From positions 1-43,987 of the forward strand of contig JACPPM010000035.1 in the NCBI GenBank assembly GCA_016191015.1: 43,987 nucleotides of DNA, given 5' to 3'. This document shows, in pieces, positions 21,292 through 42,294 of this stretch. The stretch is from Acidobacteriota bacterium. GTDB taxonomy: Bacteria; Acidobacteriota; CAIWXX01. Position 1 is the stretch's first letter. The number at the start of each line of letters is the position of its first letter. The translations under genes and the position numbers were made by a program. Below the pieces are notes generated by a model. The model had not been told where the DNA came from. It ran no database searches and saw only the letters and a program-made list of their open reading frames with translations.

Positions 21292-22647
21292 ATGCTCTCC
21301 CTCATGGCGGCGACCTTCGTGCTATCAGCCTCGCCGAATACGAATGCCCAAACCAACAATGAGGGCCTCGCCAACCTGCAATTCAACTTCCTCAACCCCG
21401 GCGCGCGCGCGCTGGGAATGGGCGGGGCTTTTGTCGCGATGGCCGACGATGCGACCACGTCTCTGGCCAATCCAGCCGGTCTCCTGAATCTGACGCAGCC
21501 CGAGGCTGGGATCGAACTGACATCGACTCGATTCGAGAACGAGATCCCGTGGTTTGGCGGCACCGCGACGGCTGTCCTGGACACGGAACTGCACACCTTG
21601 CGGGAGTTTTCCTACGCCTTCAATCCTCGCTCATTTCCAACAACCCTCAGCGACCTCTCCTTCATCAGTTTCGTCTTTCCGATTCGGCCGCGGGAGATCG
21701 TCCTTTCCGTCTTTTACGACGGCCAGACGCGTTACGAACGCGAGTTCCACACCAGTGGCATCCCGGTTCTGGACAGACGCGATGGGGGGATCCTCGACAA
21801 GTTCTTCCCGGTCAGGAGCAATCTCGCCTACCAACAGCGCCTGTTCGGAATCTCCGCTTCGACGCGGCTGGGCGACCGCATTTCGATCGGCGGCACGGTG
21901 GCCCTCGCCGCCTTCTCAATCAGAAGTGGGACGATCCGCAAGCCCGACTCGAACGATGAGATCGAACAAAGACTCGACGGTGATGATAAGCGGATAGGCA
22001 CCACGCTGGGCGTGACAGTACGCGCCACGAATCGGCTTCGCATCGGTGCTGTCTACGCGCGGAGACCTGCCTTCCACCTCACCTTCGCTCCAGACGTGCG
22101 AGACCGTCCTGGTCAGGCTCTATTCAGTGGCCCGGTCAAACTCGATATCCCCGATCGCCTGGCGCTGGGGTTGTCGTGGCGCGCGCGTGAGCGGCTTTCG
22201 ATCAATGCCGACCTGGTCCGCGTCATGAACTCGGATCTTATGAGGGGCTATTTCAATGCCTTCCACCATCCAGACAGCCCTGATCCGTTCAGAAAGATCC
22301 CGGATGCGGGCAGGGAGTTCTACGAAGTGCGTGACGGATTCGAGCTGAGGGCGGGCATGGAGCTTGTCCGAATCGTTCACCTCCGACCGCTGGCCCTGCG
22401 CGCGGGCTACTGGCGTGAGCCTTTTCATCGCATGGTCCGAAAGGAACCGGACTCAAGTGTGGTCTACGACCTGGCCGCACCGGAGAACTGGCACTATGAG
22501 CCGTACACATCCAGGAGTTTCATCGAGTCAGCCCATCATGCCACGGTCGGGATCGGCATTGCATTTGCCAGTTTTTCGATCGATGCCGGCTACGACTATT
22601 CCAAACCCACTCGACGTCTCGTCCTTTCCGGTGTCTACTATTTCTGA
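21292..22647 (+). CDS. Outer-membrane beta-barrel protein (FadL/PorV-like)
   Basis: The ~451-residue product from the ATG at 21292 has a signal peptide (LSLMAATFVLSASPNTNAQ). The N-terminal segment FLNPGARALGMGGAFVAMAD followed by DATTSLANPAGL is characteristic of FadL/OmpP1-, PorV- and UPF0164-type outer-membrane barrels. Regular amphipathic strands continue to the C-terminus, which ends in RRLVLSGVYYF with the terminal aromatic residue expected for barrel assembly. FadL-type barrels carry hydrophobic compounds; PorV-type ones serve in secretion. The frame is open upstream to 21031 but only through repeat R2, so that extension is rejected. The stop lies 7 bp before the next gene, so this barrel probably belongs to one operon with the two ATPase genes. 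Confidence 0.7.
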   Translation: MLSLMAATFVLSASPNTNAQTNNEGLANLQFNFLNPGARALGMGGAFVAMADDATTSLANPAGLLNLTQPEAGIELTSTRFENEIPWFGGTATAVLDTELHTLREFSYAFNPRSFPTTLSDLSFISFVFPIRPREIVLSVFYDGQTRYEREFHTSGIPVLDRRDGGILDKFFPVRSNLAYQQRLFGISASTRLGDRISIGGTVALAAFSIRSGTIRKPDSNDEIEQRLDGDDKRIGTTLGVTVRATNRLRIGAVYARRPAFHLTFAPDVRDRPGQALFSGPVKLDIPDRLALGLSWRARERLSINADLVRVMNSDLMRGYFNAFHHPDSPDPFRKIPDAGREFYEVRDGFELRAGMELVRIVHLRPLALRAGYWREPFHRMVRKEPDSSVVYDLAAPENWHYEPYTSRSFIESAHHATVGIGIAFASFSIDAGYDYSKPTRRLVLSGVYYF

Positions 22648-22654
22648 GTCGACG

Positions 22655-25057: not shown

Positions 25058-25064
25058 AAACGGC

Positions 25065-27137: not shown

Positions 27138-28190
27138 TCATGGTGTGCGCGCAGCCAAGGCATTCATGCGGCCGATGGCTTCACGCAGGAGATCTTCGGG
27201 CTGATTCAGGCAGAGCCGGATGTGGCGATCGTATCCGCCGAAGGCGCCGCCGGGAGCGACGACGACGCCCTCGTTGAGCAGTTCCATCGCGTACGCTCCG
27301 GAATCCTTGATCTCCGGGTGGGACGCGAAAAGGTAGATGCCGGCCTCAGGCCGCACAAAACTGAACCCGGAATCCGCGAGAGCCGCCTGAGCTAGCGTGG
27401 CTCGCTCGCGCCAGACGCCTCGGTTATCGCCCAGTATTTCCTCCTCGTGATCCAGGCAGGCCATGCCCGCCTCCTGCACGAACGGCGGCACGCACGTCGT
27501 GGTGATCTGGAGGAACGAAGTGAGCTGCCTGGCGATCTCCACGGGTGCGACGGCATAGCCCAACCGCCAGCCTTCCATGTTGAACTCCTTCGAAAAGGAC
27601 CTCACTCGGATGGCGTCGAATCGCGGGATCTCCCGGAACGCCAGCCCCTTGTACGCCTCGTCCAGAATGACGGCGACACGCTCCTGCCTCGCCTCATCCA
27701 ACGCGCGCCGGATCTGCGATTCCTCATAGATCGTGCTCGTGGGGTTGAGCGGGTTGCAGATGATCAAGACGGATGCGCCGGTCAGGGGGAGAGCGCCGAG
27801 CTGCCATCGATCCCCTGCGGAAGGGTTCACCCGTATCATCCCGAGGCCCAACTGTTCGCAGGCGAGCTCGTAGGCAGGCCAATACGGAGCCGGGACGACC
27901 ACCGGGCCTTTCCCCAGAACCGAGAGGAGTCCGTAGATGAGCTGCTTCGAGCCCGGACCGACGACGACCTGAGCGACGTCGCACCCCTCGCGGCGTGCGA
28001 TCCGGTCGCGCAGCTCCCTCAGGCCGGCCGCCGACCCGTAGCCTGACCTGCCTCTGGCCAGGCTGCGCGTGGCGGCATCAATTGCCCACCGTGGTGTGGG
28101 CAGGTTCGTGTCCCCCACGTTCAGCCGGATCAACCGCGTGCCTTCCCTCTCGAGCTCAAGAGCCCGTTCCGCAAGGTCGTAGAAGTTCAC
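27138..28190 (-). CDS. Class I/II PLP-dependent aminotransferase, probably aromatic
   Basis: The 350-residue product is a fold-type I aminotransferase. YGSAAGLRELRDRIA and NPLNPTSTIY bind cofactor and substrate. The PLP lysine is K201 in RSFSKEFNMEGWRLGY, and the C-terminal Arg of IRLCLNQPED would hold the substrate carboxylate. Being the last gene of an operon that ends with pheA and tyrA, it most likely transaminates phenylpyruvate, 4-hydroxyphenylpyruvate or prephenate; that specificity is inferred from context only. The GTG start overlaps the tyrA stop (GTGA), so translation is coupled. It is somewhat shorter than typical aspartate aminotransferases (~390-400). Confidence 0.8.
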   Translation of the reverse strand: MNFYDLAERALELEREGTRLIRLNVGDTNLPTPRWAIDAATRSLARGRSGYGSAAGLRELRDRIARREGCDVAQVVVGPGSKQLIYGLLSVLGKGPVVVPAPYWPAYELACEQLGLGMIRVNPSAGDRWQLGALPLTGASVLIICNPLNPTSTIYEESQIRRALDEARQERVAVILDEAYKGLAFREIPRFDAIRVRSFSKEFNMEGWRLGYAVAPVEIARQLTSFLQITTTCVPPFVQEAGMACLDHEEEILGDNRGVWRERATLAQAALADSGFSFVRPEAGIYLFASHPEIKDSGAYAMELLNEGVVVAPGGAFGGYDRHIRLCLNQPEDLLREAIGRMNALAARTP

Positions 28191-28960
28191 TGCACATTCT
28201 TCCGGAGAGTCGCGAAGAACCGTCGCGCCTCCTCCTGATCGCGGTCTGCAATCACGTGCTTGAGAAACTCGATCCGTGAGGTGATCTTTCTGAGCTGGTC
28301 GAGCGAGTGCGGATTGAACAGGACCTCGGCCAGCAGCTGATCGTCTTCGGAGAGCAACCCGCGCGCGATCGTGAGGTGCCGGGCGAAGGTTGTCCCCGGC
28401 ACCACGGTCTCGTCGACGCAGGCGGCAAAGACCAGCGAAGCCGCGAAGGGAGTCGTGAGTGAGTAGGCCATCATTCGATCGTGCTCGGCAAATGTGAGAT
28501 CGAACACCGTGACTCCGAGCCGACTGAAGAGGTTGCGGAAAAGTGCCGCGCCCTCCGCATCAGACTCCTTGATGACGATCGCGTTTTCGCGCCGGAGCGC
28601 ATCCATATCTGCGAATGTGGGGCCGAACATCGGGTGCACCGAGACGAATCTGCGCCCGCAGCTTTGGTAGTAGCGCGGCAGCTCTCCCTTGATCGAGGCA
28701 ACGTCGGCGAGCATGCAGGCCTGCGGGAGCTTCGGCACCACGGCCTCGAACGCCAGTACCGTTTCGCTGAGGCTCACGGCATTGATCAGCAGATCGGGTG
28801 CGAGCTCCGCGAGCTGCTCGACGCCGGCGACCGACGTCACCCCCGGCGCGCTCGTCGCTCTGGCCGGGTCCCTGTCGGCCAGTGTCACCTGGTGCTCGCG
28901 AGCGAACTCCCCGGCGAGCCAGCTGCCCATCTTGCCCGCACCGAGAATCGCGATCTTCAT
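28187..28960 (-). CDS. tyrA: Prephenate dehydrogenase
   Basis: The 257-residue product starts MKIAILGAGKMGSWLAGEF, the NAD(P)-binding Rossmann motif. It carries ADVASIKGELPRYYQ, VHPMFGP with a conserved His, and EHDRMMAYSLTTPF with the second family His. It converts prephenate to 4-hydroxyphenylpyruvate for tyrosine synthesis. There is no chorismate mutase or ACT domain, so mutase activity comes from pheA and no allosteric domain is visible. The ATG at 28960 overlaps the pheA stop by ATGA; the open frame further upstream is only pheA in another frame. Confidence 0.85.
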   Translation of the reverse strand: MKIAILGAGKMGSWLAGEFAREHQVTLADRDPARATSAPGVTSVAGVEQLAELAPDLLINAVSLSETVLAFEAVVPKLPQACMLADVASIKGELPRYYQSCGRRFVSVHPMFGPTFADMDALRRENAIVIKESDAEGAALFRNLFSRLGVTVFDLTFAEHDRMMAYSLTTPFAASLVFAACVDETVVPGTTFARHLTIARGLLSEDDQLLAEVLFNPHSLDQLRKITSRIEFLKHVIADRDQEEARRFFATLRKNVQ

Positions 28961-30018
28961 GATGCGGCCTCGGTGTAGCAGCCCAGGAACTTGAACCAGG
29001 CCGTCTCGCCCCTGGCCGCCTCGAGCGCCCTCCGCACGCGCACATCCGAGGATGAGCCCTGGAAGTCGAGCAGGAAGGCGTAGTTGCCCGGATCCTGCCG
29101 GATGGGCCGCGATTCGATCCGCGTCAGGTTGATCCCAGCGTCCGAGAAGATCTTCAGGACGGAGAACAGGGCGCCTGAGCGGTGGGCGGTTCGGAAGATG
29201 ATCGAGCATTTGTTGCCGTCCTGCTCGACGCCCTCCCCTCCTCTCAAGACGACAAATCGCGTCGAATTGGATTCGTGGTCCTCGATGTTCTCTTTGAGGA
29301 TCTCGAGGTCGTAGAGCTCGGCGCAGAGCCTGTTGGCGATCACGGCAGCAGCCTTCGGCCGTTCTCGCGAGAGCATCATTGCCGATCCCGCTGTGTCGTA
29401 GAATGGGCGCGGTTCGAGCTTGTTGCGTGCGAGGAATTCACGACATTGTGCCAGCGCCTGCGGGTGTGAGTAGACAACCTTGATGTCGCGGTAGTCGGAA
29501 TCGGGGAGAGCCAACAGGCAGTGATGAATCGGCACCCGGATCTCTCCGGTGATCCTGACGTCAACCTCGACAAGCAGATCGTTCACCTGAGTCACGCCCC
29601 CTTCGATCGAGTTTTCGACCGGGACGACACCGCCGTCGAGCTGCCCTTTTCTCACACATTCGAACACGTCGACGAACTCGACGCAAGGAATTGGTACCCA
29701 CGACGGATCGAGGCTTCTTACGGCCAGCTCACTGTTCGCCCCATGCTCGCCCTGGAACCCGACAAGCGTCAGATCCTGAGCCTGGAGTTGCCTCGACTCG
29801 TCGATGATCCCGGCGAACAGCTTTTCGGAGAACTCCGGCCGCACGACGCTCTGCGAGTGCTTCCGGGCGGCCGAGAGAACGTCCATCTCGCGCGCCGGAT
29901 CCTGCACCGACGGCTTCAGCTTGCGAGCCCGCAGGGCCAGCTCCATCCGCATGTTCAGAAGCTTCACGATCTCGAAGTCGATCCTGTCGATCTGCCGCCG
30001 TGTCTCATTCAGATCCAT
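28957..30018 (-). CDS. pheA: Bifunctional chorismate mutase / prephenate dehydratase
   Basis: The 353-residue protein has three parts. Residues 1-~85 are an AroQ-type chorismate mutase (RRQIDRIDFEIVKLLNMRME). Residues ~95-270 are prephenate dehydratase (GFQGEHGANSELAV, VVPVENSIEGGV, and the catalytic STRFVVL threonine motif near the end). Residues ~275-350 are an ACT domain (KCSIIFRTAHRSGALFSVLK and LTRIESRPIR), the usual phenylalanine sensor. It supplies prephenate for tyrA and phenylpyruvate for Phe. The layout is the common P-protein one. It starts 9 bp after aroC and overlaps tyrA by 4 nt. Confidence 0.92.
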   Translation of the reverse strand: MDLNETRRQIDRIDFEIVKLLNMRMELALRARKLKPSVQDPAREMDVLSAARKHSQSVVRPEFSEKLFAGIIDESRQLQAQDLTLVGFQGEHGANSELAVRSLDPSWVPIPCVEFVDVFECVRKGQLDGGVVPVENSIEGGVTQVNDLLVEVDVRITGEIRVPIHHCLLALPDSDYRDIKVVYSHPQALAQCREFLARNKLEPRPFYDTAGSAMMLSRERPKAAAVIANRLCAELYDLEILKENIEDHESNSTRFVVLRGGEGVEQDGNKCSIIFRTAHRSGALFSVLKIFSDAGINLTRIESRPIRQDPGNYAFLLDFQGSSSDVRVRRALEAARGETAWFKFLGCYTEAAS

Positions 30019-30027
30019 GTCGTCACC

Positions 30028-31026
30028 TCACCCGCGCCTGGCCACTCGTGGCACTTTCTGTTCCAGCAGCAACAGGTCTGCAAACACAATCGCCGCGACC
30101 GCTTCCACGACAACCGGAACACGGAGCGCGATGCAGGCATCATGTCTTCCTTCAACTCGAATCTCCGCATGCTGTCCCGTCGCCATATCAACCGTCTGTC
30201 GCCCCTTCTTGATGCTCGATGTCGGTTTCACCGCCACCTTCAACAAAACCTCATTCCCGTTGGTGATCCCCGCGTTGATCCCCCCCTCATGATTGGTCCG
30301 GGTGCGGCCATCGACGTCGATGATGTCGTCACTGAGCTCGCTCCCGCGCATCCTGCTCCCCGCGAACCCTGCCCCGAATTCGATGCCCTTGATCGCCGGG
30401 ATCGCGAAGATCGCGTGCGCAAGCAGCGACTCGGCCGAGTCGAAAAACGGCTCTCCCAGCCCCGCGGGGAGCCCATTCACCCGGCATTCCACGACTCCAC
30501 CAACTGAATCGCCCTCGTTCATCGCCATCTCGACCGCGGCGGCCACGTCACCGCTCCCGCCGGCCTCGACAAGCTTCGCATCCGCGACAGCGGGCGCGAT
30601 CACCTTCTTCGCGACCACTCCGGCCGCAACGATCCCTGCCGTCAGCCGTCCCGAGAAATGCCCACCACCGCGATAGTCGCTGAAACCCCCGAATTTCTTC
30701 AGAGCCACGAAATCGGCATGCCCCGGCCGGGGTGTGGTCCGGAGCCGCTCATAGGCCGCCGAATCCGTGTCGGTATTTGCGAAGACGATGAGAACAGGGG
30801 CGCCGGTCGCCTTCCCCTCGAAGACCCCGCTCCTGATCTGCGGAACGTCGGATTCCTTGCGCGGCGTCGTTCCTCTCGCCCCGCTCCGCCTCCTTTCGAG
30901 ATCGCCGTCGAAATCAGCTGGCGACAACGGGATCCCGGCCGGAACGCCGTCGATCAACACGCCGACACACTCCCCGTGCGACTCGCCCAACATCGATACG
31001 CGGAAAATCCTGCCGAATGTGTTCAT
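30028..31026 (-). CDS. aroC: Chorismate synthase
   Basis: The 332-residue product carries the family signatures GESHGECVGVLIDGVPAGI at the N-terminus, RRRSGARGTTPRKESD, and HADFVALKKFGGFSDYRGGG with HFSGRLTAGIVAAG, which bind FMN and EPSP. It removes phosphate from EPSP to give chorismate and needs reduced FMN. It is a little shorter than the 350-390 usual in the family, with a short C-terminus. The ATG at 31026 overlaps the aroA stop (ATGA), which settles the start against a longer open frame. Confidence 0.92.
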   Translation of the reverse strand: MNTFGRIFRVSMLGESHGECVGVLIDGVPAGIPLSPADFDGDLERRRSGARGTTPRKESDVPQIRSGVFEGKATGAPVLIVFANTDTDSAAYERLRTTPRPGHADFVALKKFGGFSDYRGGGHFSGRLTAGIVAAGVVAKKVIAPAVADAKLVEAGGSGDVAAAVEMAMNEGDSVGGVVECRVNGLPAGLGEPFFDSAESLLAHAIFAIPAIKGIEFGAGFAGSRMRGSELSDDIIDVDGRTRTNHEGGINAGITNGNEVLLKVAVKPTSSIKKGRQTVDMATGQHAEIRVEGRHDACIALRVPVVVEAVAAIVFADLLLLEQKVPRVARRG

Positions 31027-32270
31027 CCTCGCCTCAAACTCTCCAGATCCTCGAAAAAGCCCGGATATGACTTGCGCACACACTCCGATGATTGTAGGAG
31101 AACCCCGTCGCGCGAAACGAGACCGGCCACGGCCGCCGCCATGGCGATCCTGTGGTCGCCACGAGGATCAACCGTTCCGCCGGCCAGCGTCCCTCCCGTC
31201 ACCTCCATCACATCACCCGTCACGGCGATCGTGCCACCGAGTCGCCTGAACACATCGCTCAGAGACGCCGCCCGATCGCTCTCCTTGTGGCGGAGCCTTC
31301 CGGCTCCGGAGAGCCGGCTCGTGCCGGTGCAGGCGGAGGCGAGCGCCACGAGCGGCGGAAACAGATCCGGACAGTCGGACGCATCGAATGCGAACGGCGC
31401 CAGGACCCTGCCCGATACATCGATCGCATCGCATTCGCATCGAACGCCTGCCCCGCACGCCCGCAAGACATCCAGGATGGCTCGGTCCGCCTGCCTCGAG
31501 TCCCCTCGCAGGTTCGACACACGAGCGCGCCCCGCCAACGCCCCCGCCACGAGAAGGAACGCTGCCCCGGACCAGTCACCTTCGACCTGATACTCGCGAG
31601 CTCCATATCGCTGCCCGCCCCGAATGTGGAATTGCGTGAGCGACTCGTCGTGGACGACCCGAACGCCGAAGTCGGCAAGGACGTCGATCGTCATCCTCAC
31701 GTACGGATGGCTCTTCAGCTCGCTTACTACTAACGTAGTATCATTGCCGCATGCCGGGGCCGCAATCAGCAGTCCCGTGAGGAGCTGGGAGCTGGTCGAC
31801 CCGTCCACCTGTGCCGTTCCTCCTCGCAGCGGGCCCCTCACCACAATCGGTGGCAGCCCGTTGGCCGTGGTGCAAGCTGCCCCCAACGCCTTCAGCGGAG
31901 CCTCGACCATCCCCACCGGGCGCGACGCAAGCGACCCACGGGCGGTCAGCGTGCTCTCCCCTGCAAAGAGCGCGGCGATGGGTGTGAACATCCGCATGCA
32001 CAGACCGGATTCGCCACAGTCGATGAGCGAACCATCAGGTGCCGCTCCGCCGCCCTCCACCCTGACCTGACCCGTATCGAGATCGACGTGGGCGCCGAGC
32101 GCTCGGGCGGCCTGAAAGGCCGCATGCGCGTCCTCGCAGAGCGAGGGAGTCAGAATCGTCGACGTCCCCCTGGCCAGCATCGCCGCGGCAACGGCACGCT
32201 GAGTCATGCTCTTCGACGGAGGCGCGATCACGCACCCCTCCACGCGAGCGGGACGGATCTCCCTGTTCAT
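31023..32270 (-). CDS. aroA: 3-phosphoshikimate 1-carboxyvinyltransferase (EPSP synthase)
   Basis: The 415-residue product has the EPSP synthase hallmarks: PPSKSMTQRAVAAAMLARG near the N-terminus, GESGLCMRMFTPIAALFAG in place of the usual GNAGTAMR loop, and RGDHRIAMAAAVAGLVS near the C-terminus. It joins shikimate 3-phosphate with PEP. The GESGLCMR loop departs from the class I GNAGTAMR pattern and resembles variants in non-proteobacterial enzymes. Four-nt overlaps join it to aroB upstream and aroC downstream. Confidence 0.9.
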   Translation of the reverse strand: MNREIRPARVEGCVIAPPSKSMTQRAVAAAMLARGTSTILTPSLCEDAHAAFQAARALGAHVDLDTGQVRVEGGGAAPDGSLIDCGESGLCMRMFTPIAALFAGESTLTARGSLASRPVGMVEAPLKALGAACTTANGLPPIVVRGPLRGGTAQVDGSTSSQLLTGLLIAAPACGNDTTLVVSELKSHPYVRMTIDVLADFGVRVVHDESLTQFHIRGGQRYGAREYQVEGDWSGAAFLLVAGALAGRARVSNLRGDSRQADRAILDVLRACGAGVRCECDAIDVSGRVLAPFAFDASDCPDLFPPLVALASACTGTSRLSGAGRLRHKESDRAASLSDVFRRLGGTIAVTGDVMEVTGGTLAGGTVDPRGDHRIAMAAAVAGLVSRDGVLLQSSECVRKSYPGFFEDLESLRRG

Positions 32271-33304
32271 CTACCCGGACTCCGCTGAGGCGTCACGGCC
32301 GCCGCATCCATCAGTTCCTCGACCGTTACCTCCTCAACGACGGCATGGCCGATCCTGTCGAGGAGCGTCATCCGGAGCCTACCGCCGGCTCGCTTCTTGT
32401 CCTTCCCGATCGCATCGATGATCGGGACCTCATCCCATTCGATTCGGGTCGGCAGGCCGAATCGCGTGAGCAGCGTCGCGAGTCGCTTCGCGGCCGAGTC
32501 GGGCAGACGGCCTCGTCCCACGGAGACCCTGGCGGCGGCCACCATTCCGACGCTGACGGCTTCGCCGTGGGGCAGTCCTACGGCCTTCTCGATCGAGTGC
32601 CCGAGAGTGTGGCCGAAGTTCAGCTTCATGCGCGCCGCCTGATCCGATTCGTCCTCTTCGACCACCGCCGCCTTCACAGCGACAGACCGGCTGACCGCCG
32701 TGTGCACGGCGCCGCGTTCCAGTGCCAGGAGCGCATCGGGGTCGACCTCCAACATGCCGAAGAGCTCTTCGTCCCCCACCGCGGCGCTCTTCACGATCTC
32801 GGCGATCCCGCATCGGACGGCACGCGTCGGGAGCGTCCTCAGCAGATCGTAGTCGAGCAGACAGAACCTCGGCTGCCTGATTGTCCCGACGAGGTTTTTG
32901 TAGGCCCGCAGGTTGACGCCATTCTTTCCCCCCAGGCTCGCGTCCACCTGAGCCAGCATTGTGGTCGGAACGAAGCCGAAAGGAAGACCCCGACAGAATG
33001 TCGACGCCGCGAAACCGGTCACGTCGCAGACGACGCCCCCGCCGATGCCGAGAACGAATGAGGTACGATCGAGCTCCAATTCCAGGAACCGCTCGTAGAT
33101 TCTGGAGACGGTCTCGAGCGTCTTTGATTCCTCGCCCTCGCCGATCTCCACAACTGGAGCCGACGGGAAGCCGGCTCCGTGCAACCGCCGGACGGTCGGA
33201 TCGGTGACCACGACGACCCGATCTGAGCAGCAGTGTTCGGAGACGTCTCCGAGCTTCCCTCCCAGGATGATCTCGCACTCCCCGGTGACTCCGCGAATCC
33301 TCAT
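32267..33304 (-). CDS. aroB: 3-dehydroquinate synthase
   Basis: The 345-residue product shows the NAD- and metal-binding signatures of Aro[42 protein letters not shown], and the metal-binding [24 protein letters not shown]. It cyclises DAHP to 3-dehydroquinate, step two of the shikimate pathway. Its start overlaps the DAHP synthase stop and its stop overlaps the aroA start (4 nt each). Genes for the next three steps (dehydroquinase, shikimate dehydrogenase, shikimate kinase) are not in this window. Confidence 0.92.
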
Positions 33305-34122
33305 GATGTCTTTTCCACGCCCTCCATGAACCCCTGAAGCTCACGCACCTTCTTCATCATAGTTGAGAATTGGGCCGGTGTCAGAGCCTGTTCTTTATCG
33401 CTCAACGCCTCCGCCGGGTTCCGATGCACTTCGACGATGATTCCGTGCGCTCCGCAGGCGACCGCCGCCATGCTCATTGGCGGAATGAGACTCACCCTTC
33501 CCGTCCCATGCGTCGGGTCCGCAATCACAGGTAGATGACTCAGCTCTTTGATCGCCGGGATCGAACTGAGGTCGAGGGTGTTTCTGGTGTAGGTCTCGAA
33601 GGTTCTGATCCCCCTCTCGCAGAGAATCACGTCGGGGTTCCCTTCGTTGAGGATGTACTCGGCGCAGTTGAGCCATTCCTGGATTGTGGAGTGCATGCCT
33701 CGTTTGAGCAACACCGGCTTTGCCGCGCGCCCGACCTCCTTGAGCAGTGAGAAGTTCTGCATGTTGCGCGCGCCGACCTGCAGGACGTCGGCGTACTCGC
33801 AGACCCACGTGACATCCCGCGTATCGATCACCTCGGTCACAACCGGCAAGCCGGTCACGCTTCGCGCCTTCTCGAGGAGCTTCAGCCCCTTGAGGCCGAG
33901 CCCCTGGAAGGCATAGGGGGAAGTGCGAGGCTTGAAGGCGCCTCCCCGCAGCATGTCCGCACCCGCAGCCTTCACGGCGATGGCCGTTTCGAGGAGCTGA
34001 TCCTCGCTCTCGACCCCGCACGGGCCGGCGATCACCGTGAACCCAACACCGATACTCACCCCCGCAACCTGGACGACGGTCCGTTCGGCCCCGTTCAATG
34101 ATGCGAGCTTGCACTCAGTCAT
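33301..34122 (-). CDS. aroF: 3-deoxy-7-phosphoheptulonate (DAHP) synthase, class I-beta
   Basis: The 273-residue product is a bare class I-beta DAHP synthase barrel: [71 protein letters not shown] and [15 protein letters not shown]. It condenses PEP and erythrose 4-phosphate to start the shikimate pathway. Only ~28 residues precede the barrel, so the N-terminal ferredoxin-like/ACT regulatory domain of, for example, Thermotoga enzymes is missing. No fused chorismate mutase is present either. The enzyme is therefore probably not feedback-inhibited through an added domain, which makes the attenuator upstream of trpE more important (inference). Confidence 0.92.
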
Positions 34123-34949
34123 ACGGCCTCCTGTGCGCGGGGTCTCCGCGCCTGCTTGAGCTTGCGCACGGTCTCCTGCGCGAGCTCACCGATTCGCCGG
34201 CCGGCTTCGGCCGGATCGTACTCCTCGATAAACCGTACCAGGACGCTCCCCATCACGACCGCATCCGCGTCCACCGCTACCGCGGCCGCCTGATCCGCTG
34301 TCGAGATCCCGAATCCCACGGCGATGGGATTGCTCACGTGACTGCGAAGCCTCCGGATCTCCACCCCGAGAGATACCGGGAGCTGATCGCGCATCCCGGT
34401 GACTCCGAGTCGCGAGACGTAGTAAACGAACGCTGTCGACCGCTGGTCGATCGCCTGCAACCGTTCGGGCGTGCTCGTCGGTGCCGCCAGGAAGACGGTA
34501 TCCAGCCGCGACTCCCGCATCGCCGCACGGTAGGCATCGGCTTCCTCCACGGGCAGATCCAGAACGAGCGCTCCATCGGCACCCGCGTGTGATGCACGCC
34601 GGGCGAAGGTCGCGACGCCGGTGCGTAGCAGCGGGTTGTAATAGGTGAAAAGCACAATGGGAATCACGCAACCGCCGGAACGCACGCGCGCGACGAGATC
34701 GAGGACGGCCCGCAGTGTGACCCCGTTGCGCAGCGCCCGCTCGGATGACCGCTGATTCACCGGCCCGTCTGCGACAGGATCAGAGAATGGCACACCAATC
34801 TCGACCACATCGGCACCGGCCTCTGCGAGGATGCGTATGTATTCTTCTGTCCACTCAATGGAAGGATCGCCCGCCGTCAGGTACGGAATAAACCCCGCGC
34901 GATCGCTGTCGCGCAGCGCTTTCATAGTTGATCTCAAGCGTGTGTTCAT
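34119..34949 (-). CDS. trpA: Tryptophan synthase alpha subunit
   Basis: The 276-residue TIM-barrel protein carries [11 protein letters not shown] with the catalytic Asp region, [20 protein letters not shown] with the catalytic Glu and Asp, and a C-terminal [11 protein letters not shown] and [10 protein letters not shown] phosphate-binding part. It cleaves indole-3-glycerol phosphate and passes indole to TrpB. It overlaps trpB upstream and the DAHP synthase gene downstream by 4 nt. Confidence 0.92.
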
Positions 34950-36181
34950 GCACCCCCCACGATCTCAGCCTCCGCGCCTGGAACTTTGCACTTTGAACTT
35001 TGAACTGCTCCCCGCATGGTCTCTACGTCCTTGTCTCCCCGCCCCGAGACATTGACGATGACGACCGAGCCGGATGGCATCGCGGGGGCGCGCTTGCAGG
35101 CATAGGCGATTGCGTGAGCGCTCTCGAGAGCAGGGATGATTCCCTCGGTCCGGCTCAGCATCTGGAAGGCCTCGATCGCCTCATCGTCCGTAACGCTCAC
35201 GTACCTCACCCGGCCTCGTGCGAACAGGTCCGCGTGCTCCGGGCCCACCGCAGGATAGTCGAGTCCGGCTGACACGCTATGGGTCTCCCTGATTTGGCCG
35301 TCGTCGTCCTGGAGCAGGTATGTATAGGTCCCGTGCAGAACCCCGGGCGAACCCCAACCAGGTGCGAAACGCGCCGCATGGCGACCCGAGTCGATCCCCT
35401 CGCCGCCAGCCTCGACCCCCGTCATCGCGACCCGGGCATCGTCCAGGAAGCCCGAGAAGATCCCGATCGCGTTGCTGCCACCGCCGACGCATGCGATCAC
35501 GGCCTCCGGCATCCTCCCCTCGGCGGCGAGTATCTGTCCACGCGCCTCCTCCCCGATCACTCTCTGGAAGTCGCGAACCATCGTCGGGTACGGATGCGGT
35601 CCCAGCACCGAGCCCAGAACATAGTGAGTCGTATCGACACGTCCAACCCAGTCGCGCATCGCCGCGTTGATGGCGTCCTTCAGCGTGCGGCTCCCCGATC
35701 CAACCGGGATGACCTCCGCACCCAGGAGTTTCATCCGGAACACGTTCAGCGCCTGCCGCTCCATGTCCCGTTCGCCCATGTAGACGGCACACTCCATTCC
35801 GAGGCACGCCGCTGCTGTGGCCGTCGCAACGCCGTGCTGACCGGCGCCGGTTTCGGCGATGAGCCGTCTCTTCCCCATGCGCATCGCCAGTAGAGCCTGT
35901 CCGATCGTGTTGTTGATCTTGTGCGCGCCCGTGTGGGCGAGGTCTTCACGCTTCAGATAGATCCGGACGCCCCCGAGAGTCGCACTCAACCGTCGCGCAT
36001 ACGTCAGCGGCGTCGGACGCCCCGCGTACTCGCGCAGCCGTCCCCGGACTTCTTCCTGAAACCCGGCATCGTTTCTGATGCGCCCGTACATGAGTGTAAG
36101 CTCGGCGAGAGGTGCCATCAGGGTCTCTGGAACGTAACTGCCTCCGAACTCACCGAACCTGCCCTCCACTCTCCCGCTCAT
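34946..36181 (-). CDS. trpB: Tryptophan synthase beta subunit
   Basis: The 411-residue PLP enzyme shows [14 protein letters not shown], the PLP lysine in [20 protein letters not shown], and the phosphate loop [14 protein letters not shown]. It condenses indole with serine. The conserved part ends at [11 protein letters not shown]. The last ~20 residues, including QSSKCKVPG, are encoded by a heptamer tandem repeat (34983-35006) and are not part of the family fold. It overlaps trpF and trpA by 4 nt. Confidence 0.93.
34983..35006. repeat. Heptamer tandem repeat inside the 3' end of trpB
   Basis: On the + strand the words are ACTTTGC, ACTTTGA, ACTTTGA and ACTGC. Three 7-nt units equal seven codons, so the frame survives and the repeat is translated as a TrpB tail. 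Confidence 0.8.
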
Positions 36182-36807
36182 ACCTTACCCCCTTTCACCC
36201 GGTGCGTGCTGCGCACCGCGTCACAAAAGGCCTTCAATTGCGCCGGGTCCTTGATCCCGGGAGCGCTCTCGATCCCGCTCGAGACGTCCACCCCCCACGG
36301 TTGCACGAATCGTACTGCGTGTGCCACGTTGGCAGGCGTGAGCCCGCCCGCCAGAATTGCCCGGCGGCGCCGAGCCACATCCCGAGCGAGCGCGAAGTCG
36401 ACCGGGCTTTCCTGCGTCTTCGGGCGATCCGCGAGGAGAAGGACGGAATCGAACCCTACGGCTCGCTCGACGCTCTCCCTGCCCGTCAGCTCAACCGCCT
36501 TGATGCATCTCCAGAGACCGATTTTCCGGCAGACGTCGCCCGGTTCCGCTCCGTGAAGCTGGACCAGGTCCAACGGGACCTGCCGGCAAACGGCGAGGAT
36601 TGCCTCGACGGGTGCGTCGATGAACACGCCGACACGCTGAACCGTGGCAGGCAGAGCGCCGGCGATTCCCATGGCTCGGTCGACCGTGACGCAGCGTGGG
36701 CTTTCGGCAGCGAAAACGAACCCCACGGCCCACGCACCGCACTCGGCTGCCAGCACCGCATCACGCTCGCGAGTCACGCCACAGATCTTCACGGCAACCA
36801 TCGTCAT
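36178..36807 (-). CDS. trpF: Phosphoribosylanthranilate isomerase
   Basis: The 209-residue barrel starts [18 protein letters not shown], with the catalytic Cys in [15 protein letters not shown] is followed by [14 protein letters not shown] and [16 protein letters not shown], which contribute the catalytic Asp and the phosphate site. It isomerises phosphoribosylanthranilate in tryptophan synthesis. It overlaps trpC upstream and trpB downstream by 4 nt. Confidence 0.92.
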
Positions 36808-37586
36808 GCCCTCACGCCACGCGCGAGCAGGCCGGCCAGTGCGGCGCCCGGCCCGCCGGTTCTGATGAAATGCGTTCCTATCAGGAAGCCGGCGTAACCG
36901 AGTGCGGAGAGCTCGGCGATCTGCTCTCCTCTCGTGATGCCACTCTCGCTGATCAGCACGGTCCCCTCAGGCCGGGGGACGCGGGCGAGCCGGCGGGAGA
37001 CCTCCAGGTCCACTTCGAGGCTCTTCAGGTCACGATTATTCACGCCGATCATCGTCGCGCCGCACTGAATGGCGATGTCCATCTCCTCCTCCGAGTGCAC
37101 CTCGATCAAAGTGTCCAGCCCGAGACCTGCTGCCGCGCGACGAAGGCGGGCCAGGGTGTCGGACCCGAGCAACGCAACGATGAGCAGGATGCAATCCGCC
37201 CCGTTCAAACGGCCGAGCTGCACCTGTGACTCGTCGACGATGAAGTCCTTCATGAGAAGCGGCAGGTCGACGGCATTCCGGATTGCCGAGAGGTGCTGGA
37301 TGCTCCCGCCGAAGAAGTCGGGTTCGGTGAGGACGGAAATCGCCGACGCACCGTTGGCTGCGTACTGCCGCGCGACGTCGACTGGATCGAGCCCGTGGCC
37401 GAGGCAACCGGCAGAAGGCGATCGCATCTTCACCTCGGCGATGATGCCAGGTCCGCCGAGGATGGCAGTGCGGAACTCCCTGGGCGGTGGGAGGGTCGCG
37501 AGTCTGTCGCGCAACGTCGCCGGATCGGAACACAGCGGTTCCCGGGCGATTCGCTCCCGCGTTGCCCGTGCGATCGTTTCAAGCAT
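36804..37586 (-). CDS. trpC: Indole-3-glycerol phosphate synthase
   Basis: The 260-residue barrel carries IIAEVKMRSPSAG, LTEPDFFGGSIQHL, LLMKDFIVDESQVQ, IGVNNRDLKSLEVDL and LISESGITRG, which together provide the catalytic Lys and Glu residues. It closes the indole ring from CdRP. It is the first gene of the second block of the operon: 440 bp of repeats separate it from trpD, so either read-through or an unseen promoter must supply its transcript. Confidence 0.92.
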   Translation of the reverse strand: MLETIARATRERIAREPLCSDPATLRDRLATLPPPREFRTAILGGPGIIAEVKMRSPSAGCLGHGLDPVDVARQYAANGASAISVLTEPDFFGGSIQHLSAIRNAVDLPLLMKDFIVDESQVQLGRLNGADCILLIVALLGSDTLARLRRAAAGLGLDTLIEVHSEEEMDIAIQCGATMIGVNNRDLKSLEVDLEVSRRLARVPRPEGTVLISESGITRGEQIAELSALGYAGFLIGTHFIRTGGPGAALAGLLARGVRA

Positions 37587-37620
37587 CGTGAATACTCAGC
37601 TGGCGTGGATGCCGAAGTGA

Positions 37621-37998
37621 AGTCCACCGCAGAGGCGCAGAGCACGCAGAGGAGGGAAGAAATGGTGGATGGACCACCGCCCTTTGCTGCCTCGATTGGA
37701 TGTCCAGGTTTTCAAGAATGCAGCCGAACCGGACGTCACCGCCGTAGCGCCTCAGCGGTCTGGGGCATCCGTCCATCATCGAACCGAATGTAGGCGTGTC
37801 TCTTTCCGCTCTAACGCAAAGGCGCAAAAACGCAAAGCCACAGGATTGGGCCGGAGATTCTTTCCGCCTTTGCGGCTTTGTGTTTGAAACGGTCTCGATC
37901 GAAGCCGGTCTGCCTTTCTCATCAGAAGCCGTGCGACAAATCCCACAAGAATGACGCATTGCATCTCCGCGCTCTCTGCGTCTCTGCGGTGAGACGAA
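37621..37998. repeat. Nested palindromic repeats R6 between trpD and trpC
   Basis: An outer pair (CCGCAGAGGCGCAGAGCACG near 37628 and, inverted, CTCTCTGCGTCTCTGCGG near 37974) encloses an inner pair (ACGCAAAGGCGCAAAAACGC near 37814 and, inverted, CCTTTGCGGCTTTGTG near 37867). The gap 37587-38026 holds no gene and no clear terminator. Confidence 0.75.
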
Positions 37999-38026
37999 TG
38001 GCTCTCGTTGCACGGCGGCCGAGTAG

Positions 38027-39061
38027 TTACAAAGCATCGCTGTGATCCCTGTTCAATCGGCGCAGCTCCTCAAGCAGCACGGCGGCCCGCCCGGACCTGA
38101 TGCACTCGCGCGCGATCTCGACGCCATCGCGGAGAGTCGGGACGGAGCCTGCGACCAGAAGCGCCGCTGAGGCGTTGAGGAGTGTGCCATCGAGGAGGGG
38201 GCCTCCTTCGCCGTGACAAATGTGCTCGAGAGCGCGGGCGTTGGCTGCAGCGTCCCCACCGACCAGGGCGCGCGGATCGGCGCGTGGCAACCCCAGCTCC
38301 TCGGGGGTCACGACCCCGTTCCGAATCCCGCCCCATTCGTCGATCTGACAGATGAAGGTCGCCCCGGCCACGCTCAGCTCGTCCATCCCGTCCTCGCCGT
38401 GGACGATCATTACGCGATCCACCCCCAACTCCAGAAGTGTAGCGGCATAGATCGTCACCAGGGAGAGGTCGCGGACCCCCATGACCTGGCGCCTCACGCG
38501 CGCCGGGTTCGTGAGCGGGCCGAGGAGGTTGAAGACGGTCGGAAGCCCGATGGCTTTGCGCGCACGGGCCACGTGCTTCATCGCGGGATGATAGAGAGGG
38601 GCGAATAGAAAGCCGAAGCCGGTCTGCTCGATGGAGCGCTGCGTCAGAGACGGCGCGCAATCGACGGCGACACCGAGCGCCTCGAGCACATCGGCGCTCC
38701 CCGCGCGACTCGACACCGCCCGGTTTCCGTGCTTCGCGACCGCGGCTCCGGCGCCGGCTGCAACCAGAGCTGCCGCGGTGGAGAAGTTGAACGTCGAGAG
38801 CCCGTCGCCGCCTGTCCCGCAGGTGTCGATGAGCGGCGTGCGGCGGATGGGGATGGTGACCGCCCGATCGCGCATCGCTTCGGCGAATCCGGCGAGCTCA
38901 TCCGCGCGCACCCCCCGCGGCTGAATCGCCCCCAGAAGGGCGCACACCTGCGCCTCATCCACGTCGCCCGACATCATCATGCCCATGGCATCGCGCGCGG
39001 CGGAACGCTCCAGCGGCCTCCCGTCGAAGAGGGTATGGAGGAACGGCTTGATGTCCGGCAT
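38027..39061 (-). CDS. trpD: Anthranilate phosphoribosyltransferase
   Basis: The 344-residue product has the PRPP-binding DTCGTGGDGLSTFNFSTAAA, then KHGNRAVSSRAGSADVLEAL, FAPLYHPAMKHV and FNLLGPLTNPARV, all TrpD hallmarks. It transfers phosphoribose to anthranilate. It starts 3 bp after the trpG stop, and its 3' end abuts the repeat block before trpC. It is a standalone TrpD, not fused to TrpG. Confidence 0.92.
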   Translation of the reverse strand: MPDIKPFLHTLFDGRPLERSAARDAMGMMMSGDVDEAQVCALLGAIQPRGVRADELAGFAEAMRDRAVTIPIRRTPLIDTCGTGGDGLSTFNFSTAAALVAAGAGAAVAKHGNRAVSSRAGSADVLEALGVAVDCAPSLTQRSIEQTGFGFLFAPLYHPAMKHVARARKAIGLPTVFNLLGPLTNPARVRRQVMGVRDLSLVTIYAATLLELGVDRVMIVHGEDGMDELSVAGATFICQIDEWGGIRNGVVTPEELGLPRADPRALVGGDAAANARALEHICHGEGGPLLDGTLLNASAALLVAGSVPTLRDGVEIARECIRSGRAAVLLEELRRLNRDHSDAL

Positions 39062-39064
39062 GCT

Positions 39065-39628
39065 TTACGCCTCCAAGAAATTCCGCAGGATCGCTTTTCC
39101 ATCAGCAGTCAGGACGGATTCTGGGTGGAACTGAACGCCTTCGACACGGTATCGCTTGTGGCGGATTCCCATCACGGTTCCGTCGCTGGTGGTCGCGGTG
39201 ACCGTCAGACACGATGGCAGCGTCGCGCGCTCGACCACCAGTGAGTGGTACCGTGTCGCTACGAATGGATTGGCGACACGCCGGTAGATTCTGTGACCGT
39301 CATGACTCACCTCGCTCGTCTTGCCGTGGCAGAGCCTTCTCGCGCGCACCACGCGCCCGCCGAAAGCACGCGCCACTGCCTGGTGCCCGAGGCACACACC
39401 GAGAATCGGAATCGAAGGCGCGAGGACCCGAATGAGATCGACGCATATCCCGGCCTGGTCGGGATGGCCCGGCCCCGGCGAGATGACGATGGCCCTGGAC
39501 CGAAAACCCGCCACGTCGGAGACCGCCAGAACATCGTTGCGCCGCACGATCACGCGCGCCCCAAGCTCGGAGAGATACTGGTACAGGTTGTAGGTGAAGG
39601 AATCGTAGTTGTCGATGAGCAGAATCAT
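39065..39628 (-). CDS. trpG: Anthranilate synthase glutamine amidotransferase subunit
   Basis: The 187-residue class I glutamine amidotransferase starts ILLIDNYDSFTYNLYQYL. It has the nucleophile Cys in ILGVCLGHQAVARAFGG and the His/Glu pair in VEGVQFHPESVLT. It supplies ammonia to TrpE. In some bacteria such a subunit also serves PabB; no pabB is visible here. The start overlaps the trpE stop by 4 nt. Confidence 0.92.
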   Translation of the reverse strand: MILLIDNYDSFTYNLYQYLSELGARVIVRRNDVLAVSDVAGFRSRAIVISPGPGHPDQAGICVDLIRVLAPSIPILGVCLGHQAVARAFGGRVVRARRLCHGKTSEVSHDGHRIYRRVANPFVATRYHSLVVERATLPSCLTVTATTSDGTVMGIRHKRYRVEGVQFHPESVLTADGKAILRNFLEA

Positions 39629-41211
39629 GATGCACCCCGCGAGACACCCAATGCATGAGTCCCGCCGCCGACCTTGCGACCTGGGAAATCGGACTTCGGA
39701 CCTCGGCCGACAGAATGCGCGATGCGCACCGCTTCAAGGACAGCTCGTGCCTTGTGGCGCGTCTCGTTGAGCTCCCTCATCGGTTGCGAATCGGCCACGA
39801 TCCCCGCTCCGGCGAGGATCGTGGCGAGCTGCCCGCATCCGTCCTGCCTGATCTCGGTGCACCGGATGGCGATCGCGGAATCCAGGTTGCCGCGGAAATC
39901 GTGGTACACCACGGCGCCGCCGTAGAGACCGCGCGGCGAGGCTTCGATGTCTGACACGAGCTGCATGGCGCGGATCTTCGGAGCGCCCGTCACCGTGCCC
40001 GCCGGGAAGCATGCAGCAAAGGCGTCCCATGGCGACAGGCCCCGCTTCAGTCGGCCGCGGACCGACGACACAAGGTGCATGACGTGGCTGTAGCGCTCGA
40101 TTTGCATGAACGACCCGACGCGGACGCTGCCCGCGCGCGCCACGCGCCCGACATCATTGCGGCTCAGATCGACGAGCATCACGTGTTCCGCGCGCTCCTT
40201 GACGCTCTTCAGCAATGCCTCTTCGCGCCTGAGATCCTGTGCTTCGGTCGCGCCGCGGGGGCGCGTGCCCGCGATCGGTCGTGTCTCGAGCCAACCATTC
40301 TCGACGCGCACGAGCATCTCCGGGCTGGCCCCCAATGCCGTCGCGCCATCCATCCGCACGAAGAACATGTACGGGCTCGGATTAATCATCCTGAGCGCAC
40401 GATAGACGTCGAAGGGGTCGGCTCTGAGTTGGACCCGAACGCCATTCGCGAGAACGGCCTGGAAGATGTCACCCTGTCGGATGTGCCGCTTCAGCCGGAG
40501 CACCCCATCGAGAAAGATGTCGTCGCCGCTCACGGACGAGACCGAGCGCGGTCGCAGACGGTGTGGCCGCGCAATCGGCGCCGATACCGCCCGAGGGTGG
40601 CTCAGTCTGGCCTCCATCGCATCCAGAGAATCGCGGGCGCTGTCATAAGCTTTCCGGGAGGATGCGCGGCCGTCCGCGATCAGATTGGCGATGAGCAGCA
40701 TGCGGTGCTTCAGCCGGTCAAATGCGATGATGTCTCGAAAGAGCATGAACATGGCTTCGTCGCAGTCTCGGGGGCAGAGCCCGGTGCTCGGTTCGAGATG
40801 CCGCATCATCTCGTACCCCACGTACCCGACCGCGCCCCCACAGAAGCGCGGAAGTCCCGGCTCGTCGAGCGCTCGGAAGCGCGTCATCGCATCGCCGATC
40901 GCGGCAAACGGATTGCTGCCGCACCCGCCACCGTCCGTTCGGATCTCCTCGCCCGAGGGCAGCTTGCGCAGAAGCCTCCCGGCCACGACTGTCCATGTCT
41001 CGAATGGACGGGCGCCCAGGAAAGAGTACCGTGCCATGCGGTCTCCCCCTTCGACGCTCTCAAGCAAGAAGGCGGGCTCATCAGGTCCGGCTACGTCCAA
41101 GAATGCCGACACGGCCGTGTGGAGATCCCCAGGGACTTCGCGCACAAGCGGGACCACGTTGGCGCCATCCCGGACCGCCTCGAGCACCTGCCGATATGTT
41201 TTTTCCGCCAT
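39625..41211 (-). CDS. trpE: Anthranilate synthase component I
   Basis: The 528-residue product has an N-terminal part with the Trp feedback motif FLLESVEGGDR and the chorismate-binding domain (IFQAVLANGVRVQL, MINPSPYMFFVRM, RPIAGTRPRGAT, DLSRNDVGRVA, FPAGTVTGAPKIRAMQLV, AGAGIVADSQPMRELNET). It makes anthranilate from chorismate with TrpG. The last ~25 residues (from GRGPKSDFPGRK) are encoded partly by a heptamer repeat and lie beyond the family fold. The ATG has GGAGA six bases upstream and follows directly on the attenuator U-tract. Control is thus likely double: transcription attenuation plus feedback at the LLES site. Confidence 0.93.
   Translation of the reverse strand: MAEKTYRQVLEAVRDGANVVPLVREVPGDLHTAVSAFLDVAGPDEPAFLLESVEGGDRMARYSFLGARPFETWTVVAGRLLRKLPSGEEIRTDGGGCGSNPFAAIGDAMTRFRALDEPGLPRFCGGAVGYVGYEMMRHLEPSTGLCPRDCDEAMFMLFRDIIAFDRLKHRMLLIANLIADGRASSRKAYDSARDSLDAMEARLSHPRAVSAPIARPHRLRPRSVSSVSGDDIFLDGVLRLKRHIRQGDIFQAVLANGVRVQLRADPFDVYRALRMINPSPYMFFVRMDGATALGASPEMLVRVENGWLETRPIAGTRPRGATEAQDLRREEALLKSVKERAEHVMLVDLSRNDVGRVARAGSVRVGSFMQIERYSHVMHLVSSVRGRLKRGLSPWDAFAACFPAGTVTGAPKIRAMQLVSDIEASPRGLYGGAVVYHDFRGNLDSAIAIRCTEIRQDGCGQLATILAGAGIVADSQPMRELNETRHKARAVLEAVRIAHSVGRGPKSDFPGRKVGGGTHALGVSRGAS
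39689..39709. repeat. Heptamer tandem repeat inside the 3' end of trpE
   Basis: On the + strand the words are TCGGACT, TCGGACC and TCGGCCG. It lies in frame in the non-conserved C-terminal tail of TrpE. Confidence 0.7.
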
Positions 41212-41228: not shown

Positions 41229-41259
41229 AAAAAAAAACCCACTTCTTTCGAAGTGGGTT
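41229..41259 (-). terminator. Attenuator terminator before trpE
   Basis: On the - strand AACCCACTTC, loop GAAA and GAAGTGGGTT form a perfect 10-bp stem (41259-41250 with 41245-41236). A run of T down to 41229 follows, nine T in all. It is a textbook intrinsic terminator placed 18 bases before the trpE start, where it can only act conditionally. Confidence 0.93.
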
Positions 41260-41304
41260 GCTTGCTGCTCTCGCCTATCGTCGCGTCAGCTCACAGCCCA
41301 CCTC
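41229..41304 (-). promoter_or_regulatory. Transcription attenuator: antiterminator segment and terminator
   Basis: The segment GAGGTGGG (41304-41297 on the - strand), lying over the last leader codons, can pair with CCCACTTC of the terminator's 5' arm: eight pairs, one of them G-U. A ribosome stalled on the aromatic codons just upstream would leave GAGGTGGG free and so prevent the terminator. A ribosome reaching the stop codon (41288-41286) would cover it and allow termination. I see only a weak candidate for a pause hairpin (CAGC with GCTG). Confidence 0.8.
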
Positions 41305-41462
41305 GTGCTGGAATACCAACGCCACGCATAGTTGTAGCCGAACACGAAAAACACGTTGGCGTCCAGAGAAATCACTGTCGAAGCCGCAGCCCATCCGCTC
41401 CGATTGCGGAAGCCGCTATCGATTTGCATCGGGCTCGCTGCAGCGGTCATCGGGGTACTCAT
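41286..41462 (-). CDS. Aromatic leader peptide of the trp/aro/phe/tyr operon
   Basis: The frame ends in FFVFGYNYAWRWYSSTRW plus AVS: within its last 21 residues are three Phe, three Tyr and three Trp. It stops 26 bases before the attenuator stem and overlaps the antiterminator segment. Three starts are possible: ATG 41462 (58 residues), ATG 41450 (54 residues, GAG 7 bases upstream) and ATG 41429. With the promoter at 41473-41501 the first would be almost leaderless, so 41450 may be the real one. It resembles trpL/pheL leaders in role but is longer and carries all three aromatic residues. No function as a protein is expected. Confidence 0.8.
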   Translation of the reverse strand: MSTPMTAAASPMQIDSGFRNRSGWAAASTVISLDANVFFVFGYNYAWRWYSSTRWAVS

Positions 41463-41472
41463 TGGTCCACAG

Positions 41473-41501
41473 ACCTTACACGAGCGGTCCCGCCCTGTCA
41501 A
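41473..41501 (-). promoter_or_regulatory. Promoter of the aromatic supra-operon
   Basis: On the - strand TTGACA (41501-41496) is followed after 17 bases by TAAGGT (41478-41473). The -35 is perfect; the -10 keeps T, A and the last T. Transcription would start near 41466, just before the leader peptide. I see no clear operator palindrome. Confidence 0.6.
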
Positions 41502-41808
41502 TACCACCGGCGGCGAGGTGTGATGGGCAGCACGTTGCAACCCCCCCCGGCAGCGGTGGAGCAGCCCGGGCCTGGGGCGCACGAAACCAATCGGATCTCG
41601 GATGCATCGTCGGCGTCAACCGGGGACCAAATGACCCACATATCCGAGGAAGGATGACTCAGTGGTGTGTAGTATCTATACGCCCCAATCCATCCTAATT
41701 AAACCTTTCGCGCCGGACATTCGTCTAACCCCTTGATTGTTGGAAGTGCTGTGATATGTGAGTGTGGCATGAAGCTTGCTTAAGAAATCAACTCGAAAGG
41801 AGTGTACG
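41502..41808. other. Intergenic region between divergent transcription units
   Basis: Apart from the promoter and leader on the - strand, this stretch has an AT-rich part around 41660-41710 and a weak + strand promoter-like pair (TTGATT near 41734 and TATGTG 16 bases on) that could serve the gene at 41809. I see no gene or repeat here. Confidence 0.4.
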
Positions 41809-42294
41809 ATGGCGAAGGTCAGAATCGTGAAATGCCAATTGGTGAAAAACGGGGGGGCACCTTCCGTGATGGATCTCCGCTACGTACCCTTGAGCGAGTT
41901 CACCCTCTGGGAATATTTCATGCAGCACAAGTACGGGTGGAAGGTGCTTGTACTACAGACGTCGTATTGGATGGACCAGGAGCAGGTGCGGTGGGAGATG
42001 GGTGAGGTCGCGGCGGAGAGGTTGGAGCGCGTCGATCGAGTCGTCGTGGAGTGGCTTGCTGACGACAACCTGATCATCCCGCAAGAGCGGTTCTTTCCGG
42101 AGGATAGGTACGACTATCGGAAGGAACAGTTCCTCAAACATTATCCGACCCACAAGACCGTCAATGAGATGGCGATGATCGCCAGGCGGGTCGAAGAGAC
42201 TGTCGGCTATTTCATCAAGTCGCGCGCCGCCGAGAACCCCAACGACCACTCGAACGGTGATAGTAAGTCGAACAAGCTTCGCGCATCGGCTTGA
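41809..42294 (+). CDS. Protein of unknown function, 161 residues
   Basis: I do not recognise a family. The product starts MAKVRIVKCQLVKNGGAPSV, has a Trp- and Tyr-rich middle (FTLWEYFMQHKYGWKVLVL and TSYWMDQEQVRWEMGEVA), then a long helical-looking, charged segment (AAERLERVDRVVVEWLADDN). It ends in a polar, probably disordered tail (ENPNDHSNGDSKSNK). There is no signal peptide or membrane segment, so it is probably cytoplasmic. The start at 41809 is fixed by AAAGGAG about 7 bases upstream; the in-frame ATG at 41776 lacks this. It is divergent from the aromatic operon and convergent with the candidate RNA at 42550-42849. Confidence 0.6.
   Translation: MAKVRIVKCQLVKNGGAPSVMDLRYVPLSEFTLWEYFMQHKYGWKVLVLQTSYWMDQEQVRWEMGEVAAERLERVDRVVVEWLADDNLIIPQERFFPEDRYDYRKEQFLKHYPTHKTVNEMAMIARRVEETVGYFIKSRAAENPNDHSNGDSKSNKLRASA

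Follow-up and report, generated by a model that had tools for sequence, protein, structure and literature searches.

Upstream of trpE, the first gene of an operon for the common aromatic pathway and all three of its terminal branches, the window (the whole 43,987-nt stretch analysed here) appears to hold a ribosome-mediated transcription attenuator whose leader peptide carries Phe, Tyr and Trp codons and whose input would be of the OR type. We put the probability of this reading, which draws on RNA folding and on comparison with relatives, at a little over three in four. Of the three inputs to such an OR gate, Trp and Tyr are likely ones, and Phe, for which sensing is argued from one operon, is plausible. 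What the analysis shows is how the leader region is built, that its two hairpins exclude each other, where stalls free the antiterminator in silico, that relatives have the same device and that Tyr codons go with operon content; the start site, the leaderless initiation, the kinetics and the response to starvation are features that we infer.

On the minus strand, the leader region separates trpE (39625-41211) from a divergent ORF (41776-42294). Both the TTGACA promoter and the leader frame of the original prediction are present there, on that strand. The -35 box TTGACA (41496-41501), in an arrangement that recurs before the leaders of relatives, is separated by a 17-nt spacer from a weak -10 box, TAAGGT (41473-41478, 3 of 6 matches). 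This pair is the top-scoring promoter within 260 nt, and a strict-consensus scan misses it because of the weak -10 box. The leader ORF, previously unannotated, spans 58 codons (41286-41462; MSTPMT...SLDANVFFVFGYNYAWRWYSSTRWAVS*), with its ATG at 41462-41460, its tail reading ...FFVFGYNYAWRWYSSTRWAVS and its TGA at 41288-41286. A second, out-of-frame ORF (41394-41275, 39 aa, with GGAG near its ATG) was considered as the sensing frame and rejected, since its peptide contains neither Trp nor Tyr.

The leader ATG lies only about 3-4 nt past the inferred transcription start, which would make the leader leaderless or nearly so. For 36 leaders the best promoter within 260 nt was chosen with start codons ignored, and an in-frame ATG then fell 0-5 nt past the predicted start in 13 of them, against 1.4 expected (P=6e-10), while the other two frames together gave one such ATG. 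The 13 are spread across families and comprise the leader studied here and those at loci L058, L063, L064, L065, L071, L074, L101, L146, L157, L238, L241 and L248. Leaderless translation thus looks usual for these leaders, and it may be common for attenuator leaders of this kind; the trpL RNA of S. meliloti likewise begins at its ATG (PMC7298713).

At the other end of the region stands the perfect terminator that had been predicted before trpE, which starts just downstream at 41211. Recovered both by a terminator scan and by folding, this intrinsic hairpin (41236-41259, minus strand) has 10 perfect pairs and a 4-nt loop, with a folding energy of -15.6 kcal/mol (z -6.6), and it runs into a tract of nine U (41229-41237), the first two of which are paired in the stem. 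The antiterminator segment complementary to the terminator arm is also present, as part of a hairpin longer than first described (41249-41305, minus strand), in which the 5' arm CGAGGTGGG (41305-41297) pairs with the 3' arm CCCACTTCG (41257-41249). Including its inner helices it reaches -28.2 kcal/mol (z -5.2), a value equalled by 0 of 200 shuffled sequences. Its 5' arm includes GAGGTGGG (41304-41297), which can pair with the 5' arm of the terminator, CCCACTTC; antiterminator and terminator are mutually exclusive, as positions 41257-41250 are common to both. A further hairpin around the control codons (41308-41366, minus strand; CUGGA.GCCAACGU..GCGUUGGU..UCCAG) is predicted at -19.1 kcal/mol, with a z of -1.5 that does not set it clearly apart from shuffles; as a candidate pause hairpin, it could hold RNA polymerase over these codons.

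How a stalled ribosome would act on these structures was simulated by folding the RNA upstream of the second terminator arm with a ribosome set at each codon in turn and given a 14-nt downstream footprint. In silico, stalls from codon 20 to W48 leave the antiterminator with a probability near 1; it is lost from Y49 onwards and blocked when the ribosome stands at the stop codon. Varying the footprint over 10-18 nt shifts the cutoff by at most 2 codons. The antiterminator arm has no competing segment upstream, and its hairpin has a predicted probability of 0.999 when the ribosome is left out; termination should thus depend on translation, in contrast to E. coli trpL. The complete RNA at equilibrium prefers the terminator in every case, even with an early stall (about 0.95), which means that antitermination must be kinetic and decided during transcription, as is the outcome in known attenuators.

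The following course of events is proposed as a model. RNA polymerase would initiate from the TTGACA promoter, and ribosomes would find the leader AUG practically at the 5' terminus of the transcript. With Phe-, Tyr- and Trp-tRNAs all charged, the ribosome would reach the stop codon and cover GAGGTGGG, whereupon the terminator could form and trpE would remain untranscribed. Were any one of these charged tRNAs short, the ribosome would stall at F37/F38/F40, Y42/Y44 or W46/W48 and leave GAGGTGGG free to pair with CCCACTTC before the second terminator arm is made; the resulting antiterminator would let transcription into the operon, supplying the common pathway and all three branches, by the logic of an OR gate. 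The first reading of this DNA had proposed that stalling at Phe, Tyr or Trp codons opens the operon, and in the simulation the control codons do lie upstream of the last permissive stall, apart from Trp54 and with the case for Phe confined to one operon. It had also suggested inputs of unequal strength, and here the folding disagrees, since the antiterminator probability is near 1 throughout codons 20-48; kinetics could still make the inputs differ.

The sensing codons themselves form a dense block. In FFVFGYNYAWRWYSSTRW, 9 of 18 residues are Phe, Tyr or Trp, a content found in no other of the 62,986 stop-free 18-codon windows that the 44 kb yield when read in all six frames. Among 5000 dinucleotide shuffles, none reached nine such residues or three of each, and the binomial probability relative to the proteins of the operon itself is 1.4e-7. 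The predicted count of three Phe, three Tyr and three Trp is right, yet not all nine would sense: the antiterminator arm takes in Trp54 and has Tyr49 at its border, which leaves 7 to 8 usable codons, namely F37, F38, F40, Y42, Y44, W46 and W48 (41313-41351, minus strand, from the stall simulation), with Y49 borderline. These figures bear on the possibility of a plain Trp attenuator, in which sensing would fall solely to the WRW codons adjoining the antiterminator and the Phe and Tyr codons would be incidental neighbours. It gains something from the relatives, most of which keep 2-4 Trp codons nearest the cutoff, several having Trp codons only. Three Phe and three Tyr codons in one block are nonetheless beyond chance, and they fall inside the permissive zone.

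The operon that such a leader would control runs in closely packed order on the minus strand as trpE-trpG-trpD-ORF152-trpC-trpF-trpB-trpA-aroF-aroB-aroA-aroC-pheA(CM-PDT-ACT)-tyrA-aminotransferase. It holds the 14 aromatic genes originally counted, all of which can be named, plus one ORF without a family match. The trp genes comprise trpE, encoding anthranilate synthase component I (39625-41211; TIGR00564 the best match, below cut-off), trpG/pabA (39065-39628; TIGR00566, above cut-off), trpD (38027-39061; TIGR01245), trpC (36804-37586; NF001377, just below cut-off), trpF (36178-36807; NF002298, below cut-off), trpB (34946-36181; TIGR00263) and trpA (34119-34949; TIGR00262). Between trpD and trpC, and slightly overlapping both, the ORF call gives a 152-aa frame (37579-38037) with no match in NCBIfam or Pfam. 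The common pathway is represented by aroF, a DAHP synthase of the B. subtilis type (33301-34122; TIGR01361, PF00793), aroB (32267-33304; TIGR01357), aroA (31023-32270; TIGR01356) and aroC (30028-31083; TIGR00033). These are followed by pheA, with CM_2, PDT and ACT domains for a chorismate mutase-prephenate dehydratase-ACT protein (28957-30018), by the prephenate dehydrogenase gene tyrA (28187-29032; PF02153, over cut-off) and by a PLP aminotransferase, presumably aromatic (27138-28190; NF004770 and related models, all below cut-offs). The operon pheA is the sole prephenate dehydratase detected in the 6.4-Mb genome (a single PF00800 match), and the operon tyrA the sole prephenate dehydrogenase detected there. 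Three genes of the genome match the DAHP-synthase family model, the operon copy included; one of the others may be a KDO8P synthase, an enzyme that also matches such models. Convergent with the operon end, 22364-27014 on the plus strand carry genes for a TPR/AAA (STAND-like) ATPase and, after it, for a protein with a Ser/Thr kinase domain.

For comparison, trpE loci were collected through TrpE from hundreds of genomes of the phylum (probably Acidobacteriota) and from 80 named records. The phylum is suggested by loose DNA matching, in which Acidobacteria records came nearest to most relatives; no named record was near-identical to any of them. The source genome has no close relatives among the compared genomes, so relatives were compared by anatomy; the only compared genome from its own family, G001, has a TrpE that is 44% identical. 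An aromatic leader and a terminator stand at about 35 of the relatives' trpE loci. In many relatives a similar three-way complementarity links the antiterminator with the 5' and 3' arms of the terminator, in differing sequences; in many, too, the last permissive codon marks the end of the aromatic cluster. The original prediction had named as contrary evidence a terminator kept by relatives that had lost the frame or its aromatic codons; the opposite is seen, as relatives keep the frame. As a separate observation, G002 (L013/L066) and G017 (L017/L067) have Tyr/Trp-rich frames before trpE with no detectable intrinsic terminator; these may act through a different output, for example Rho-dependent termination or control of translation.

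The relatives' choice of aromatic codons broadly follows the genes of the operon. Which genes each operon holds was tabulated by hand from tblastn and HMM results, with some contigs ending early; tyrA was sought with a custom HMM and Pfam because tblastn with the proteins of the source operon misses divergent tyrA genes, and a second trpE of G281 (on the short contig 27, where no trp genes were detected downstream) was excluded from the statistics. All seven operons with a downstream tyrA have leaders with Tyr codons: the one studied here (FFVFGYNYAWRWY), G010 (NNYFWCWY), G059 (RYYYWWY), G006 (PYYTYYWWF, its operon apparently split between contigs C4 and C44), G187, G202 and G281. At least two Tyr codons occur in six of seven leaders with a downstream tyrA and in 6 of 23 without (Fisher p=0.009), and in 12 of 19 operons extended by aroF and/or tyrA as against 0 of 12 trp-only operons (p=0.0004); these p values are indicative and overstate independence, the sequences being related and the operon content hand-compiled. 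The Tyr trend holds when the data are collapsed by family (Mann-Whitney p=0.003 and 0.006).

This association is visible within a single family with alignable leaders, where three members with tyrA behind trpA read GY-YWYW, GYDYWYW and GY-RWCW, and six without tyrA read LWCW, LWCW, MWCW, NWHW, QWRW and FCSW. Similarly, the genome with the closest TrpE (G184, 59%) has the Trp-only leader RWWWNSH, and neither tyrA nor pheA was found behind its trp genes. That Tyr codons accompany extended operons and vanish in the trp-only operons of the same family argues further against a plain Trp attenuator, even though Tyr or Phe codons also stand in some leaders whose operons lack tyrA or pheA, and we regard that alternative as quite unlikely. 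Six operons without tyrA, all with aroF (G001, G003, G031, G037, G100 and G118), carry Tyr codons, so the match is to an operon that serves more than Trp and not strictly to tyrA. G001, G010, G006 and G059 have two DAHP/KDO8P-family genes per genome, one of them in the operon; with only two such genes, these operons may supply the common pathway for all aromatics.

Some of the same data fit an attenuator for Tyr and Trp, in which Tyr would report on chorismate/DAHP-synthase supply and the Phe codons would lie kinetically too far upstream. Leaders with both Tyr and Trp codons turn up in many families, as strong Phe blocks do not, and aroF operons without tyrA often bear Tyr codons; Phe37-40 stand 8-11 codons before the cutoff. 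On the other side, stalls at the Phe codons fold to the same antiterminator, and the sole operon with pheA among the leader-bearing ones examined, the present one, is also the only one to combine that gene with a Phe-Phe-Val-Phe block, although the block of G249 also has three Phe and its operon no pheA. We judge a sensor of Tyr and Trp alone to be improbable, and keep to the reading in which all three amino acids are sensed. A tblastn match at L060 that had suggested another pheA was rejected as a free chorismate mutase and not a prephenate dehydratase.

Two observations concern prephenate dehydrogenases elsewhere. The enzyme of the G010 operon carries a DAHP-synthase ferredoxin-like domain fused at its N-terminus (PF18152 + PDH; L058 9904-11181, minus strand), an unusual arrangement that could carry feedback control. 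In the f27 genomes G084, G121, G179 and G273 the prephenate dehydrogenase lies on other contigs than the trp operon, and in G084, G179 and G273 it is near prephenate dehydratase and DAHP synthase matches, which suggests that, alongside a Trp-only trp leader, the Phe and Tyr genes form a cluster of their own.

Control of the terminator by an RNA-binding protein, a T-box or a riboswitch, with the frame a chance ORF, is highly improbable: a lone terminator fits any sensor and the untranslated RNA is predicted to antiterminate, but no Rfam T-box or riboswitch matches the leader even at E<=10, and the aromatic frame recurs in position and with leaderless starts. Other Rfam matches at E<=10 look like chance only, and the Trp_leader model RF00513 scores 19.1 bits, below its gathering cut-off of 41. 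The locus is like the B. subtilis aro-trp supraoperon in having trp genes within an aromatic supraoperon under terminator/antiterminator control. The sensor in B. subtilis is, however, the TRAP protein, which binds 11 (G/U)AG repeats (PMC4027176), whereas counting by eye gives about four such triplets before the terminator here (41305-41250).

For a long time leader-peptide attenuators were known mainly from Proteobacteria and Actinobacteria, and classical Trp leaders carry Trp codons. The present leader shares with those of E. coli trpL, S. meliloti trpL/rnTrpL, Corynebacterium and Streptomyces the succession of pathway codons before an antiterminator, an intrinsic terminator and trpE. It differs in placing Phe, Tyr and Trp codons before trp, common-pathway, pheA and tyrA genes, where those leaders control trp genes and have Trp codons described as the regulatory ones, and in lacking a protector hairpin that overlaps the antiterminator arm. 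Actinobacterial trp leaders show a conserved three-way complementarity, with double or triple UGG as the regulatory codons (PMC1262725).

The original contrast with classical leaders that sense one amino acid does not hold in general, because ilv leaders carry codons for several (PMC6123439, PMC11857589). The E. coli ilvGMEDA leader has 15 branched-chain residues among its 32 aa (PMC6123439), and the C. glutamicum ilvL contains Ile, Val and Leu codons (MTIIRLVVVTARRLP) and starts one nucleotide from +1 (PMC11857589). Like the leaders of ilvGMEDA and ilvBNC, the one studied here is a single leader with codons for three amino acids made by its operon; the amino acids are others and the sequence is unrelated. 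Moreover, Ile, Val and Leu share enzymes, whereas the terminal branches to Phe, Tyr and Trp are separate and are gathered here in one transcript. A database-derived proposal of 2005 placed attenuator-like structures before large aromatic supraoperons with tyrA, for example pheA-aroF-tyrA-[trp] of Desulfovibrio vulgaris (PMC1173090, Table 7). The present locus likewise has a putative attenuator before a large aromatic supraoperon; that paper makes no mention of leader peptides, whereas here the leader codons are read and compared across genomes. In the open-licence literature, where silence is weak evidence of absence, we came upon no description of a leader that combines codons for Phe, Tyr and Trp, and the present leader apparently reads all three of these amino acids.

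We lean slightly towards the broader view that the trp leader of this phylum is a rapidly re-coded leaderless sensor fitted to the branches that its operon serves, with the full three-input version occurring here and turning on the common pathway and all three branches at once whenever one aromatic tRNA lacks its amino acid. The change of sensing codons with the controlled genes offers a natural experiment on how sensor specificity evolves by point changes. If this view is true, the codon content of a leader could specify what an operon of an uncultured lineage is for.
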